From Candidatus Gottesmanbacteria bacterium RBG_16_52_11 (lineage in GTDB: Bacteria > Patescibacteriota > Microgenomatia > UBA10105 > UBA927): 44,492 nucleotides of DNA. The translations under genes were made by a program, and so were the position numbers. The notes below the pieces were generated by a model that saw only the letters and a program-made list of their open reading frames with translations, was not told where the DNA came from and searched no databases. Position 1 is the first letter of the stretch, and each line of letters opens with the position of its first letter. Location of the stretch: NCBI GenBank assembly GCA_001779095.1, contig MFJD01000004.1, positions 34,632 through 79,123 of the forward strand. Direction: 5' to 3'. This document shows positions 4,885 to 35,329 of the stretch, piece by piece.

Positions 4885-5430
4885 ATGAGTATCTATACAC
4901 GAACCGGTGACGACGGCACCACAGGGCTCTTCGGCGGCAAACGGGTTCTCAAATGCGAAGAACTGGTAGACGCATACGGTACTCTTGATGAGCTGAACTG
5001 CTGGATCGGGCTACTGATAGTCAATGTGCATGATCCTTCCTTCCGGGATCTCTTAACCGGCATACAAACTGACCTCTTCGCCACAGGAAGCGTACTGGCG
5101 GGCTGGAAAGGGGACATCTCTCATATAAACAGCCGGGTAACGGTTTTTGAGCAGCGCATCGATGAAGCGCAGGCAGAGTTGCCGGATCTGTCGAGTTTTA
5201 TTCTCCCCGGTGGTTCACTGGTCGGATCATATGCGCATATCGCCCGGAGCATTGCGCGGCGTGCTGAGCGTCAGGTTGTCGGTATTGCCAAAACAGAACA
5301 TGTCGATCCGGTAATTATCAAATATCTCAACCGGTTAAGTGACTTGCTTTTTGTCTTGGCGCGACTTATAAATAAGAATGCCGGTGTTACCGAGACCGCA
5401 TGGTCAGGTATGCATCCGAAAGGTAAATAA
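4885..5430 (+). CDS. pduO: PduO-type ATP:cob(I)alamin adenosyltransferase
   Basis: A 181-residue protein that adenosylates cob(I)alamin to coenzyme B12 in the cytoplasm. The N-terminal P-loop-like motif GDDGTTGLFGG (residues 8-18), DAYGTLDELN, and the helix IARSIARRAERQVV with the conserved Arg/Glu residues are those of the PduO/EutT-like trimeric family. Placement straight after nrdJ gives a functional pair: cofactor activation next to the B12-dependent reductase. No corrin synthesis genes are present in the window, so cobalamin is presumably taken up or salvaged. The ATG is immediately preceded by the TTAAGTNAC palindromes, and the stop codon is followed at once by a cobalamin riboswitch. 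Confidence 0.93.
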   Translation: MSIYTRTGDDGTTGLFGGKRVLKCEELVDAYGTLDELNCWIGLLIVNVHDPSFRDLLTGIQTDLFATGSVLAGWKGDISHINSRVTVFEQRIDEAQAELPDLSSFILPGGSLVGSYAHIARSIARRAERQVVGIAKTEHVDPVIIKYLNRLSDLLFVLARLINKNAGVTETAWSGMHPKGK

Positions 5431-5504
5431 ACGGTCGGGGACAGAGGAAGGCTGTGTAAATCAGCCGCTGTGCCGCAGTCGTGAGTCTACCGTAGTTTTT
5501 CTCC

Positions 5505-5542
5505 AAGGTGGGCAAACCCACCTTCGTCAAGGCTACGGCAGG
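5505..5542 (+). repeat. hairpin plus dispersed CPR repeat inside the riboswitch arm
   Basis: A perfect stem AAGGTGGG/CCCACCTT with CAAA loop (5505-5524) runs into a copy of a short dispersed element (5521-5542) with the core CCTTCGNCAAGGCTACGG. Related copies lie at 19594-19620 and 23297-23323. Here it builds the tip and one side of the riboswitch peripheral helix, so the repeat seems to have been absorbed into the RNA. Confidence 0.6.
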
Positions 5543-5635
5543 CAAGCCGGAAACTCTCCCGTACCGCATCCCGAGCAGGAATTCAGTTTCGTCATCATCC
5601 ACGGTCTGCCTGACGCGGCTCATGACAATTGATTG

Positions 5636-5661
5636 ACCTTCCCGGGAGGGAAGGTTTTTTT
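5636..5661 (+). terminator. intrinsic terminator of the cobalamin riboswitch
   Basis: ACCTTCCC (5636-5643), loop GGGA, GGGAAGGT (5648-5655), then seven T (5655-5661). The next base is the A of the GNAT start codon. The 3' arm also carries the only Shine-Dalgarno-like purine runs (GGAGGG/AAGG), so the same hairpin could block both transcription and translation. Confidence 0.85.
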
Positions 5662-6135
5662 ATGGATATCGTAACCAGGAGAGCAACAGTTTCCGATTTA
5701 GCGGTCATCCGCGAACTGAACCGCCTGTTATTCCGTGAATCGCATGCGCGGAAACACGATGACATGCTTGATTTGGCATGGCCGGATGACCAGCGGGGAG
5801 AATCCTACTACCGTAAAGCCCTGAGCGATCCGGCAAAGGCCGTCTTCCTGGCGTTTTACGCAGGAAAGCCTGTCGGTTATCTTATCGGAACTTCTGTACA
5901 CCGGTTTGATTACCGTAAGTCCCGGGTAGGCGAGCTGGAGAATATGCTCGTTCTGTCCGCGTTCCGCCGGCGCGGAGCCGGCACCGGACTGGTTTCAGTC
6001 TTTACCGGATGGCTGAAAAATAAGGGAGTCGAACGGGTTTATGTATCGGTATATGCGAAGAACCTGAAAGCCAGCGGATTTTACCGTTCGCTGGGGTTTA
6101 AACCGATCGATGTCGGTCTGGAAAAACAAATATGA
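5662..6135 (+). CDS. GNAT-family N-acetyltransferase under cobalamin riboswitch control
   Basis: A 157-residue GNAT protein, start chosen at ATG 5662 because the protein then begins MDIVTRRATVSDL, the standard first strand and helix of the fold; an upstream ATG at 5629 would translate through the terminator. Motif A is visible as MLVLSAFRRRGAGTGLVSVF (V-x-x-x-x-R-x-x-G-x-G, acetyl-CoA pyrophosphate loop), and the C-terminal VYAKNLKASGFYRSLGFK is the usual motif B end. The acceptor is unknown. It follows a cobalamin riboswitch with no spacer and overlaps the next gene by 4 bases. GNATs are not standard B12-regulon members, so its job may relate to cobalamin acquisition or to B12-dependent metabolism; that is inference. 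Confidence 0.85.
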   Translation: MDIVTRRATVSDLAVIRELNRLLFRESHARKHDDMLDLAWPDDQRGESYYRKALSDPAKAVFLAFYAGKPVGYLIGTSVHRFDYRKSRVGELENMLVLSAFRRRGAGTGLVSVFTGWLKNKGVERVYVSVYAKNLKASGFYRSLGFKPIDVGLEKQI

Positions 6136-23377: not shown

Positions 23378-23663
23378 TTGCGGGGCCGGGAGTCGCACCC
23401 GGCCTAGAAGATTATGCATCTGTTTCTCCCATTACTGAGAGTGTCGGACTATATCTTCCCCGCCAACAATTGAGTTATCAACTGTAGGCGGGGTCCGGCG
23501 TATAGTCTCTACGGACTCGCCCCCATATTTTATGCGGAAGGGGGATTGCCTCGGTGTTGTCCTTCGGCTAGCTCAGGATTTCACCGATACAGCCGGACTA
23601 TCACTAAAATAGTTTTCAGTGAGCCCAAATTGAGCCTTCTGTGCAACTGTACACTACCCCGCG
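23378..23663 (-). tRNA. initiator tRNA-fMet(CAU) interrupted by a group I intron
   Basis: Exon 1 is the complement of 23633-23663 and exon 2 the complement of 23378-23416. Acceptor CGCGGGG pairs with CCCCGCA leaving the C1-A72 mismatch that marks initiators; the discriminator is A. Anticodon stem GAAGG/TCTTC; the joined loop is CTCATAA, anticodon CAU. D-stem GTGT/GCAC with a 6-base loop ACAGTT that lacks the usual GG, and T-loop TGCGACT with G instead of U at position 55; these two changes affect the normal D-loop/T-loop contact and may compensate each other. CCA is not encoded. Spliced length is 70. Confidence 0.8.
23417..23632 (-). ncRNA. group I intron, about 216 nt, no ORF
   Basis: The minus-strand sequence carries the conserved core: a Q-like segment AATCCTGAGC, an R-like GTCCGTAGAGACTATACG and a perfect S element AAGATATAGTCC that pairs to form P7. 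The preceding exon ends in U (U33) and the intron ends in G, as self-splicing requires; a short P1 forms between exon GGCT and intron GGCT with a U-G pair at the splice site. The inferred insertion point is between U33 and C34; nearby alternatives are possible. Group I introns in initiator tRNA genes are known from cyanobacteria. Confidence 0.8.
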
Positions 23664-23724: not shown

Positions 23725-24027
23725 CTAATTTATCTGGTTTACCGTCGGAGGACTGGAGCGGGATTTACGGGTTACCTGCTGCAGCCAGGGATAGAGATAG
23801 AGGAAAAGCCCGGTAACGGCCATGACGGCGAATGAAACCGTAAAAAAAGTGCTGTTCAGGTTATGGATTTCGGAACTTGATCGCAGGTCAAAGAGTGATA
23901 ACACCGGGAGATCGGGGTACTTCAAAACCATGCCGGTGACTGCCTGAATGGTGCCCAGTACCGCGATGATAATCACATTCAGCCGATGGAGTCTTCGGGT
24001 GAGAATGGCGAGCCTGGTAAGTTTCAT
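23725..24027 (-). CDS. small two-helix membrane protein, PepSY-TM-like
   Basis: A 100-residue protein with two transmembrane helices (about 17-38, NVIIIAVLGTIQAVTGMVL; and 60-82, FFTVSFAVMAVTGLFLYLYP). The N-terminal RRLHRLN before helix 1 and HNLNS before helix 2 give one His near each helix, similar to PepSY-associated TM segments that form part of haem- or iron-reduction proteins. The soluble PepSY domain is absent and the function is unknown. The C-terminus is short and basic. Confidence 0.6.
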   Translation of the reverse strand: MKLTRLAILTRRLHRLNVIIIAVLGTIQAVTGMVLKYPDLPVLSLFDLRSSSEIHNLNSTFFTVSFAVMAVTGLFLYLYPWLQQVTRKSRSSPPTVNQIN

Positions 24028-24102
24028 AAAAAGTATCCGGCAGTAAAGGCAATTCTACCACACATCATATCGATTGACCGGTTATGGTACAATAAGTTTC
24101 TT

Positions 24103-24174
24103 ATGAGAAGCCAAATTACCAGCTACTATTGGCACTTAACCTCTTGCCGGGAGGCTGGTAGGGCTGTGGCGTAA
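24103..24174 (+). CDS. attenuator leader peptide, 23 residues with Tyr-Tyr-Trp-His
   Basis: ATG 24103 to TAA 24172-24174. Residues 8-11 are Tyr-Tyr-Trp-His, an improbable run of scarce aromatic codons, placed where a stalled ribosome would change the RNA fold. The -10 box ends 9 bases before the ATG, so the transcript is leaderless or nearly so, as in actinobacterial trp leaders. The coding frame runs through segment 2 of the attenuator and stops 22 bases before the terminator stem. The peptide itself is unlikely to have another function. Confidence 0.8.
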   Translation: MRSQITSYYWHLTSCREAGRAVA

Positions 24175-24195
24175 ATACAAAACATACCTGCGAGA

Positions 24196-24220
24196 GACCT
24201 CCCGGACGGGAGGTTTTTTT
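24196..24220 (+). terminator. attenuator terminator before the hisC-like gene
   Basis: ACCTCCC (24197-24203), loop GGAC, GGGAGGT (24208-24214), followed by T through 24220. It lies 15 bases upstream of the hisC-like ATG. Confidence 0.88.
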
Positions 24221-24234
24221 GTGGGGAAAAACGT

Positions 24235-25290
24235 ATGAACCAGAAGATACCAAGTTTCAGAAATCTCTATGCTTTCGGCCGGAAACTTCCGGTTGATCTG
24301 TCGTTGTCGGAAAATCCCCTCGGGTGCCCGCCGGGGGCATTGAAGGCTATCAGCAGGCTGAGCCGGAGTGACGTGTTTGATTATCCCGATCCTGACGCAT
24401 CACTATTGCGGGAGGCACTTGCATCCGGCCTGAAGATACCGGTAGACATGATATTGGTATCAAACGGCGCTGAATCGATTATCAAGCTCATTGCCGACGC
24501 GTTTATCACGGGCGGTGACGAGGCGGTCATGCCTGAGCTGACATTCCCGATGTTTGCCCTGGCTGTCAAGATTTCCGGTGGGATACCGGTCCGGGTGCCT
24601 ATGACCGAATCGTTTGACATCGATCCGGACGGGATATGCGGCAGGGTGGGAAAAAGAACAAAACTGGTATTTATCTGCAACCCCAATAATCCGACCGGTA
24701 GGGTACTGGATGCAAAGATAATAATCCGAGTTGCCGGAAATATTTCCGTGCCGGTGGTAGTTGATGAAGCCAATATCGAATTCGGCGGGCAGACCGTGGT
24801 TAACTTTACCCGAGAAATACCGAATCTGATTGTGCTGCGGACATTTTCCAAAGGTTTCGGACTGGCTGGTATGCGGGTGGGATTTGCTGCCGCAGGCAGG
24901 GACATAACCGAACGCCTGAAGCGGATAAGGCAGCCGTTTCCCGTGTCAGCAGTCACCGAACGGGTGGCAGTTGCCGGACTGAGTGACACCGCGTTTATCA
25001 GACAGACGAGATCATTTATGGACCGGGAGCGGAATTTCCTGACCCGGGAAATGCGCGCCCGCGGACTGAGAGTGATTGATTCATCCGCCAACAACCTGAT
25101 GGTGATTGTGCCCGGAAAATCAGGGGCGTTTGTCCGCCGGCTTGAAGCAGAGGGAGTGTCAGTGGTTGACGGAACCGGATTTATGTGCCGCACCCCAGTA
25201 TTCATCCGGGTAAGCCCGAGACTGCGGAGCGTGAACCGGAAATTCCTGACAGCTATTGACCGGATAGCAGGCAGCGGATTTCGTTTATAA
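24235..25290 (+). CDS. hisC: HisC-like class I/II PLP aminotransferase
   Basis: A 351-residue fold-type I enzyme of the histidinol-phosphate/aromatic aminotransferase group. Seen: NPNNPTG (149-155), DEANIEF (177-183), TFSKGFGLAGMRVGF with Schiff-base Lys206, and the terminal Arg region VFIRVSPRLRS. In most HisC proteins the DEAY tyrosine contacts PLP; here it is Asn. No other histidine genes are nearby, while trpS follows 12 bases later and the leader peptide reads Tyr, Trp and His codons, so transamination of aromatic amino acids (or of histidinol phosphate) are both possible. GGGGA precedes the ATG by 7 bases. Confidence 0.85.
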   Translation: MNQKIPSFRNLYAFGRKLPVDLSLSENPLGCPPGALKAISRLSRSDVFDYPDPDASLLREALASGLKIPVDMILVSNGAESIIKLIADAFITGGDEAVMPELTFPMFALAVKISGGIPVRVPMTESFDIDPDGICGRVGKRTKLVFICNPNNPTGRVLDAKIIIRVAGNISVPVVVDEANIEFGGQTVVNFTREIPNLIVLRTFSKGFGLAGMRVGFAAAGRDITERLKRIRQPFPVSAVTERVAVAGLSDTAFIRQTRSFMDRERNFLTREMRARGLRVIDSSANNLMVIVPGKSGAFVRRLEAEGVSVVDGTGFMCRTPVFIRVSPRLRSVNRKFLTAIDRIAGSGFRL

Positions 25291-25302: not shown

Positions 25303-26730
25303 ATGGACCACCAGATACAGGGCATAAGACTAAACGGCCGCAGGATACTCTCCGGAATCACCCCGTCGGGGGACGGGACGCTCCACATCGGCAATTACTT
25401 AGGAGCGGTACGGCAGTTTATTGAGATTGCCAAGTCAAACCAGTGCTTCCTGTTTGTGGCAGACCTGCATGCCCTGACAACGGTTCAGGACCGGAAGGCT
25501 CTGGAGCGCAATACGGAAACGCTGATCCTGAACGAGCTGGCGCTTCTAGCCGGATTGGGATCGCTCGAAAACATTACGTTTTTCCGCCAATCGGATGTGC
25601 CGCTTCACGCTGAACTTCAGTCGGTCCTCAATAACGTGACGCCGGTGGGGTTTCTCAGACGGGCGCATGCTTATAAGGACAAGCTCGCCAAAGAAACGGC
25701 AGAGGATGAGATCAACCTGGGGCTTTTCAATTATCCGATCCTGATGGCTGCCGACATACTTCTTTATAAACCCGACTACGTGCCGGTAGGGCGTGATCAG
25801 AAGCAGCATATTGAAATAACCCGGGATATCGCGGACCGGTTTAACCGGACGTTCGGAAAACAGGTATTCAAGCTGCCGGAGCCTTACATTCCGGAGGAAG
25901 TCGCTGTGGTTTTGGGAACCGACGGCAAACGCAAGATGAGCAAATCCCTCGGCAACATAATTTCCATATTTGAGCCGGAAGAGGAGATTAAGAAGCAGGT
26001 GATGAGTACGTACACCGACCCCAAACGGATTCATGCCGATGATCCGGGTCACACCGAGGGCAATATGGTATTTGCCTACCTCGAATTTTTCGGGGATAAG
26101 AAAAAAGTCGCCGACCTAAAGGCGAAGTACACGGAGGGCAAGGTCGCGGACGTCGAAGTAAAGGAGTACCTTTTTGAAAGCCTGATGAAAACATTCCGCC
26201 CGGCCCGTGAAAAATACCGGGAACTGAAAAGTGACCGGAAGCAAGTGCAGGAGATTCTGGAATCAGGCGCCGCCAAAGCCCGGATCACGGCAGCCGAAAC
26301 CATGAAAGCCGTCCGGGAAGCTGCCGGACTGACCAACCAATACTCTTTTTTCCGGTATGAGTTTGCCCGGACTGACGGGATGATCTCGATTGACGAGTTT
26401 GCCCGGACGGAAATCCGGGTCGGCAAAGTCGAAAAAGCTGAGAATGTCGAGAAAAGCGACAAACTGATCCGGCTGACGGTTGATTTGGGGGAGTCAGGTA
26501 AGCGCAATATCCTGACCGGAGTGCGTGGGTTCGGGTATACGCCGGAATACTTTTCCGGGAAACAATTCTTGTTTGTGACTAACCTCGAGTACCGCAAGAT
26601 GATGGGGGAAGAGTCCCAGGGTATGATCTTAGCTGTTGATGGTTTAGAGTTGCCTTTCGGTGAACACGGAGAGGCCAAGCCGGTATTCATTCCCGCTGAA
26701 GATCTGCCGATCGGGGCAAAAGTCCGGTGA
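25303..26730 (+). CDS. trpS: tryptophanyl-tRNA synthetase fused to a C-terminal tRNA-binding (EMAP/tRBD) domain
   Basis: A 475-residue protein. Residues 1-345 are a normal class Ic TrpRS: PSGDGTLHIGNY (HIGH-like His28-Asn31), VGRDQKQHIE, and GTDGKRKMSKSLGN (KMSKS 211-215). Residues about 363-475 add an OB-fold tRNA-binding domain like that at the end of MetRS and in Trbp111/EMAP II (ISIDEFARTEIRVGKVEKAE, LTVDLGESGKRNILTGVRG). Standard TrpRS lacks this module; it would raise affinity for tRNA. AGGGAGG precedes the ATG. The gene is downstream of the attenuator whose leader contains a Trp codon, so low charging of tRNA-Trp should raise its expression. Confidence 0.93.
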   Translation: MDHQIQGIRLNGRRILSGITPSGDGTLHIGNYLGAVRQFIEIAKSNQCFLFVADLHALTTVQDRKALERNTETLILNELALLAGLGSLENITFFRQSDVPLHAELQSVLNNVTPVGFLRRAHAYKDKLAKETAEDEINLGLFNYPILMAADILLYKPDYVPVGRDQKQHIEITRDIADRFNRTFGKQVFKLPEPYIPEEVAVVLGTDGKRKMSKSLGNIISIFEPEEEIKKQVMSTYTDPKRIHADDPGHTEGNMVFAYLEFFGDKKKVADLKAKYTEGKVADVEVKEYLFESLMKTFRPAREKYRELKSDRKQVQEILESGAAKARITAAETMKAVREAAGLTNQYSFFRYEFARTDGMISIDEFARTEIRVGKVEKAENVEKSDKLIRLTVDLGESGKRNILTGVRGFGYTPEYFSGKQFLFVTNLEYRKMMGEESQGMILAVDGLELPFGEHGEAKPVFIPAEDLPIGAKVR

Positions 26731-34557: not shown

Positions 34558-35329
34558 GCACGTTCAGGGGATACTTGTCCGTAATTTCTACCTCTGGTTC
34601 CGCGAGGTGGACCGGGTGTTTGATGCTTTCTGGTGGTCGTTCTTCGATATTGCCATCTGGGGATTTATGAGTTCGTACTTTGCCGGCACCACATCCCCGT
34701 CGATCGTCGGACAGCTTCTGACCGGGCTGATACTCTGGACGGTGCTGTCGCGTTCACAGTGGGAAATTTCCGCCACTATGGTTGTCGAGTCATGGGACCG
34801 GAATCTGGCCAACATTTTTACCTCGCCGATTACTTTGGCGGAATTCCTGACGGCGTCGGTCATTCTCGGGGTGGGGAAGGTGCTGCTCGTCATGTCTTTC
34901 ACATCCCTGACGGCAGCGCTGATGATCGGATTTAACGTCTTCGCGATTTCCTGGTGGATCATTCCGCTGGTCGGTAATATCTTCCTGACCGGCGTCTGGC
35001 TGGCATTCATAATCAACGCGATCATTCTCCGGTTCGGCAAGAACGCCATCGCCTTTGCCTGGACACTGGTCTTCGTCATCAATCCGCTATCCGGCGTGAT
35101 GTATCCCATAAGCGCGCTTCCGGTGCCGGTTCAGGCAGTTTCCCGGCTGCTGCCGTCGGCATATGTTTTTGAGGGGATGCGTAGCCTGCTGACAAGCCGG
35201 ACAATCGACGTGACGCTACTATGGATCAGCCTCGGGCTGAATCTCCTCTATATCGCCGCCGGCGTCGGCGTCTATTCATATACTTTCCGGAAAGCCCGCG
35301 AGCACGGTTGGCTCGTTAAACTGGCTTAA
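34547..35329 (+). CDS. ABC-2 type transporter permease
   Basis: A 260-residue membrane protein with six predicted helices. The N-terminus contains the amphipathic FYLWFREVDRVFDAFWW segment, and GVMYPISALPVPVQAVSRLLPSAYVFEGMR near residue 190 is the classic ABC-2 signature (written here across its loop). It pairs with the preceding ATPase; a homodimer of each would form an exporter for lipid-linked glycan, drug or peptide. The gene starts within the ATPase gene, so translation is coupled. Confidence 0.92.
   Translation: MNLRHVQGILVRNFYLWFREVDRVFDAFWWSFFDIAIWGFMSSYFAGTTSPSIVGQLLTGLILWTVLSRSQWEISATMVVESWDRNLANIFTSPITLAEFLTASVILGVGKVLLVMSFTSLTAALMIGFNVFAISWWIIPLVGNIFLTGVWLAFIINAIILRFGKNAIAFAWTLVFVINPLSGVMYPISALPVPVQAVSRLLPSAYVFEGMRSLLTSRTIDVTLLWISLGLNLLYIAAGVGVYSYTFRKAREHGWLVKLA

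Follow-up and report, generated by a model that had tools for sequence, protein, structure and literature searches.

Sequence evidence for a leader-peptide transcription attenuator with Trp, Tyr, and His codons before hisC-like and trpS genes of a patescibacterial genome

We analyzed a 44,492-nucleotide (nt) stretch of DNA from Candidatus Gottesmanbacteria bacterium RBG_16_52_11, a member of the Patescibacteria (Candidate Phyla Radiation, CPR). The whole stretch, referred to here as the window, spans positions 34,632 to 79,123 of contig MFJD01000004.1 (C4:34632-79123 in the genome designated G000, which comprises 1.47 Mb in 18 contigs). The element of interest was a short leader region upstream of two genes, one for a HisC-like aminotransferase and one (trpS) for tryptophanyl-tRNA synthetase (TrpRS). 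Its sequence features indicated that it is very probably a ribosome-dependent transcription attenuator of both genes. An earlier note on this DNA had proposed a trp/his-type attenuator controlling these genes, and the retention and covariation of the codon run and pairing segments in relatives supported the proposal.

As shown in Table 1, the 23-residue leader open reading frame (ORF) with the codons TAC TAT TGG CAC was present as the earlier note had described it, and so were the three mutually exclusive stems. Specifically, segment 2 can pair with segment 1 or segment 3, and segments 3 and 4 form an intrinsic terminator with the stem ACCTCCC ggac GGGAGGT (24197-24214) and seven T nucleotides up to 24220. 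The 2:3 pairing was perfect (CCGGGAGG/CCTCCCGG), and the 1:2 pairing was strong. Compared with shuffled sequences, the z scores were -4.3 for 2:3 and -2.95 for 1:2, and none of 200 shuffles folded as well as the leader region as a whole (z of -4.2). The nearest gene upstream of the leader (23725-24027) was on the minus strand; thus, the terminator at 24197-24220 ends no upstream gene. A simple promoter and terminator scan of the window did not report this terminator; the likely reason is that the stem continues into the T run through A-U and G-U pairing.

Table 1. Positions of the attenuator features and downstream genes in the window
Feature	Position	Strand	Remarks
Extended -10 promoter element (TGG TACAAT)	24085..24093	+	TGn 24085-24087; TACAAT 24088-24093; 9 nt from -10 to ATG
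Leader peptide ORF (MRSQITSYYWHLTSCREAGRAVA, then stop)	24103..24174	+	23 codons; ATG 24103; TAA 24172-24174; homologous leaders in 15 other genomes
Control codons TAC TAT TGG CAC (Tyr Tyr Trp His)	24124..24135	+	Trp/Tyr/His cluster kept in close homologues, order varies
Segment 1 (TTACCAGCT)	24116..24124	+	Partner of segment 2; -20.8 kcal/mol with neighboring pairs
Segment 2 (CCGGGAGGCTGGTAG)	24147..24161	+	Partner of segment 1 or segment 3; triple covariation 2/3/4
Segment 3 (ACCTCCCGG)	24197..24205	+	5' arm of terminator, also partner of segment 2
Segment 4 (GGGAGGT) plus T run, intrinsic terminator	24208..24220	+	Hairpin of about -15 kcal/mol with T tail
HisC-like pyridoxal phosphate aminotransferase (aromatic/histidinol-phosphate type)	24235..25290	+	PF00155; below TIGR01141 cut-off
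trpS, tryptophanyl-tRNA synthetase with C-terminal tRNA_bind domain	25303..26730	+	TIGR00233 over cut-off; PF01588

With the aminotransferase as a probe, searches were run against 59 relatives, the order, the class (374 genomes), and the phylum (380 genomes). Fifteen other genomes had the same layout ahead of a close hisC homologue; 14 of them belong to the same class, and 1 lies outside it. These loci (L002-L006, L014, L149-L156, and, from outside the class, L158) were inspected by eye. This recurrence confirmed that the arrangement of leader and terminator is real and beyond chance. A search of genome contigs gave, for the most part, ordinary HisC proteins from other phyla, and a search of viral contigs yielded nothing of use. 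The leaders of the relatives (MCSQTTVQYHWWYTSPRELGSFVVA, MKTAQNTVWYHTHQVTGGFSVR, MNGLPTNSNWHYNPTRQVGGLFVE, MNIARVTVWYHTHPHIGRVSMR, MTNAWSHGYHTHPQAGRVSMR, MVFNLTIGYCHPPA, MNQLTTRNYYWHYTSLREAGRLVAQ, MITLTTNAYYWHYTSQREAGSFVV, MKKISFINTWYHYTSLSGGVVFSA, MIKINSVENNWHHTSLSGGVLFVV, MKKAFTFENSWYHHASFQGGVIFSA, MSLSNNTYHSAWYYFPTGRSVFLMQ, and MNFAKQINNTYHWNKLLHVADFPI) kept Trp, Tyr, and His residues (W/Y/H) in varying order; across the W/Y/H group, the runs differed in order and number (YYWH, WYH, YHWWY, WHY, WHH, YCH, and YHW). Both synonymous codons were used for Tyr and for His among the leaders. The codon run, whose conservation in related genomes the earlier note had put forward as a check, was therefore retained as a W/Y/H cluster of changing order.

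Pairing was examined in 17 leaders, namely, 15 of the W/Y/H group (the window included) and two Tyr-type leaders, L010 and L018. Each sequence was scored separately because RNAalifold understates pairing when MAFFT alignments move some terminator arms by one base. All 17 leaders had a T-tailed terminator of -10 to -15 kcal/mol, and all 17 had a 2:3 pairing with a z score of -3 to -7. The codon cluster was 7 to 16 nt from segment 2 in 16 of the 17. For each of the 1:2, 2:3, and 3:4 pairings, the true partners outscored swapped partners in 20,000 of 20,000 permutations, which is a descriptive measure and not a strict probability because the swap tests (and the label permutations given below) take in related sequences. 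As for individual bases, position 4 of segments 2/3/4 read A/T/A, G/C/G, T/A/T, or C/G/C, and it read G/T/A in both Tyr-type leaders; all four Watson-Crick types were found at terminator position 4, in terminator and antiterminator alike. The triples at position 5 were mostly G/C/G or C/G/C, and positions 5 to 7 of the three segments also varied in step. The earlier note had named a lack of both covariation and codon-run conservation in relatives as refuting its attenuator, and the segments proved to be both kept and co-varying. In many attenuator terminators, including the one in the window (TTTTTTTGTGG), NTGG was located within 0 to 3 nt after the T run, part of the terminator set having been selected for NTGG.

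A recognizable -10 element was present in 32 of 34 leaders, with a median distance of 9 nt to the start codon, and a search with a motif list revealed no Shine-Dalgarno-like sequence in any of the 34. With a transcription start about 6 to 8 nt after the -10 element, the leader ORF would begin at or a few nucleotides from the 5' end of the transcript, which would place the start in the window near 24100. The earlier note had described the leader as apparently leaderless in transcription. The lack of a Shine-Dalgarno sequence agreed with this; judged from the constant -10 spacing, the leaders are probably leaderless. With 19 nt from -10 to start, L158 may be an exception to the leaderless start.

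The window element had counterparts before other genes. The codon-blind terminator pattern AACCTCC N2-10 GGAGGTTTTTT gave 18 matches in 27 genomes and none in the reversed control, and most of the matches were leader attenuators. A looser terminator pattern yielded further leaders, the downstream genes of which were read and named. AFFAFFFAS and similar runs preceded pheST (three cases), MMM and similar runs preceded metG (five cases), and KKSKK and similar runs preceded lysS/lysK, that is, genes for class I LysRS (two) and class II LysRS (two). CCAAC was found before cysS, HH before hisS (two cases), YVYTYY and CYYYF before tyrS, and FYFYFYF before a DAHP synthase gene. An Ile leader (IEIIDIII) was located before an IleRS-like gene, the protein being named by eye, in another family of the class. 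Cognate codon runs before metG, pheST, cysS, lysS/lysK, tyrS, and hisS were seen within the same order in L166, L175, L176, L178, L179, L222, L225, L235, L240, L242, L253, L260, L269, L281, and others.

The control codons were cognate to the regulated genes, as with Trp for trpS in the window. The cognate residue was present in 25 of 25 leader-synthetase pairs (hisC operons included), and 0 of 100,000 label permutations reached the observed content. Several leaders from the looser-pattern and the phylum and class searches were without clear codon logic, so the set was not uniform, and the strict terminator pattern returned ordinary terminators only across the phylum outside the class. As judged from these comparisons, the window element is one of a lineage-wide set of attenuators that coexists with T-boxes. 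The three-aromatic-codon leader, which the earlier note had called unusual, is thus real but not an isolated case. Other features of the set included an unrelated small ORF of 70 to 100 amino acids between the terminator and the synthetase gene, which occurred in many attenuated operons (e.g., L273, L274, L276, L286, L287, and L292), and, in pheST operons preceded by Phe leaders, a fusion of PheS with an AlaX-type editing domain (L273:1496-3361 and L275:485-2302, the latter read by eye).

The two downstream genes were as named in the earlier note. TrpRS scored 295.9 bits against TIGR00233 (cut-off, 176.75), and its C-terminal tRNA_bind domain is related to that of MetRS. The aminotransferase is hisC-like, yet its 252 bits were below the cut-off of the TIGR01141 hisC equivalog (276.55). 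The gene after the aminotransferase was trpS in the window and hisS in L003, L004, L005, L006, L014, L149, and L154; in several other relatives, no synthetase gene followed directly. More distant hisC-like genes with Tyr leaders were followed by tyrS (L010 and L018). No hisD was found in G000 or in any order member carrying a W/Y/H leader, and the order members with hisD have a separate hisC beside it. No trpB was found in G000, the genome being 92% complete. Thus, the aminotransferase does not belong to a His or Trp pathway in this genome. An attenuator of this kind is expected to respond to scarcity of Trp, Tyr, or His, so the most likely role of the enzyme is to form all three from scavenged 2-oxo (keto) acids.

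In the mechanism that we propose, transcription would begin just ahead of the leader ATG, by a few bases, so that the 5' end of the RNA is where a ribosome would load directly. A shortage of charged Trp-, Tyr-, or His-tRNA would stall the ribosome at TAC TAT TGG CAC, where it would cover segment 1. Segments 2 and 3 would then pair, the terminator would be blocked, and the hisC-like gene and trpS would be transcribed. If all three tRNAs were charged, the ribosome would reach the stop codon beyond segment 2 and cover that segment, and the 3:4 hairpin would terminate transcription. If the leader were not translated, 1:2 would form, and 3:4 would terminate as well. The leader would therefore act as an OR gate, in which a shortage of any one of the three amino acids suffices, and the output would be an aminotransferase that probably makes Trp, Tyr, and His from scavenged 2-oxo acids, plus a synthetase. 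Anatomy, conservation, covariation, and the match of codons to operons were read from the sequences; transcription start, stalling, readthrough, and the direction of the enzyme are what we infer from them.

Several observations weighed against this attenuation model. The analysis was based on sequence alone, mostly of metagenome-assembled genomes. The 1:2 pairing was weak (z above -1.1) in L006, L014, L152, L153, L154, L010, and L018, and the promoter scan found no good -35 box in the window. L156 had the codon run but no ATG, GTG, or TTG at a sensible place, and its start codon would have to be ATA or ACG; no leader was present in L157, the most divergent homologue; and the Tyr leader of L018 contained one Tyr only. 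In addition, leader frames were chosen by the quality of the start and -10 element, some of them by eye among alternatives, and a score for start and -10 element gave the same frames for most leaders of the looser-pattern set.

Three other explanations were weighed. If the leader worked by nascent-peptide arrest, as in TnaC- or erm-like systems, translation would be halted at a specific peptide sequence when a small molecule is sensed, for instance an antibiotic or an aromatic amino acid in free form. Other leaders of the order do contain a conserved core, HF[MI].LI.LR, that resembles an arrest peptide; within the W/Y/H group, however, the order and number of the residues varied freely, and the sister leaders had simple codon runs matched to the synthetase, which made arrest quite unlikely for the window. 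The core itself, found in L215, L226, L238, L257, L261, L266, L272, L167, and L177, may be an arrest peptide; these leaders precede small unrelated ORFs or no ORF, and several are near and divergent from a T-box match. It is very unlikely that the terminator is a constitutive, partial one that keeps hisC-trpS expression low behind a nonfunctional ORF open by chance, given that the codon cluster, frame, start spacing, and triple covariation were conserved across families. A T-box riboswitch, in which direct binding of uncharged tRNA to the leader RNA stabilizes an antiterminator, is a mechanism with matches in 26 of 27 genomes of the order (3 over the cut-off, and one near serS in G000), but it is extremely unlikely here because the window leader gave no T-box (RF00230) match even at an E value of 10, is only about 120 nt long without the TGGNACCGCG core, has a conserved reading frame with a codon cluster, and lies away from all three T-box matches of G000. 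One locus of this genome, G000:C16:65335-65552 (L246), had a T-box-like leader and terminator, below the Rfam cut-off, before a SerRS-like gene.

Two further RNA features were noted in the window. A group I intron (RF00028, 65 bits) was located at 23425-23642 on the minus strand, near the divergent gene upstream of the leader. A cobalamin riboswitch at 5421-5665 scored 26.4 bits, just below the Rfam threshold of 31.5; downstream of it were a terminator and then a GNAT-like gene.

The Patescibacteria are mostly uncultured, and starvation sensing in them is poorly known. We consider it likely that in this streamlined, scavenging lineage many synthetase and amino-acid salvage operons are under leaderless one-amino-acid attenuators beside T-boxes and that, with its three inputs, the Trp/Tyr/His leader works as an OR gate controlling a salvage aminotransferase. 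Such leaders would be readable sensors in which the codons name the amino acid that each operon answers to. They also enable functional predictions, both for a lone HisC-like enzyme that would act on Trp, Tyr, and His and for unknown small genes in synthetase operons, and they provide evidence, at the level of sequence, for leaderless translation and for coupling of transcription and translation in these bacteria. Attenuation by leader peptide would be extended to a new phylum and, in it, to pheST, metG, lysS, lysK, cysS, hisS, tyrS, and trpS.

No Rfam family was over threshold in the window element, and nothing except a tRNA was over threshold in 20 other loci tested. The Phe_leader family (RF01859) aligned end to end with the window leader but scored 23.3 bits, the family cut-off being 55. 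T-box leaders have the same output, synthetase genes answering tRNA charging, but use no ribosome or leader peptide. The trp, his, and pheA/pheST attenuators of Enterobacteria likewise have a short leader with control codons, three exclusive stems, and a terminator before the structural genes; their Rfam families are Phe_leader, Trp_leader, and His_leader. Attenuation of synthetase genes by leader peptides is known from single cases, among them pheST in gamma-proteobacteria. The window element differs from the enterobacterial attenuators in its probable leaderless start, the lack of a Shine-Dalgarno sequence, a leader that reads three amino acids and whose stop codon is past segment 2, its occurrence in Patescibacteria, and an operon of a lone aminotransferase and a synthetase. 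Several amino acids per leader are also found in the thr (Thr and Ile) and ilv (Ile, Val, and Leu) attenuators, where they share a pathway, whereas the Trp, Tyr, and His of the window would be joined through one aminotransferase. In Streptomyces, trpS and leuS are regulated by classical attenuators before the synthetase gene (PMC1262725), which, unlike the window element, respond to a single amino acid, belong to another phylum, and involve no aminotransferase. Complementary antiterminator and terminator triples have been described for classical attenuators of Actinobacteria, there for trp operons (PMC1262725). The earlier note had held leader-peptide attenuation to be little known outside Proteobacteria and Actinobacteria; it is not confined to those two, as it has also been reported for hisS of bacilli, in the Firmicutes (PMC2965389). 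That leader likewise places His codons ahead of hisS, and T-boxes are in use in its lineage as well, but it reads His only, with no Trp or Tyr. For Patescibacteria/CPR, we found no report of leader-peptide attenuation in the open-access literature. The mechanism is classical; what is new, as far as these tools show, is the lineage, the input of three amino acids, the probable leaderless start of the leader, and the wide range of synthetase genes in the set.
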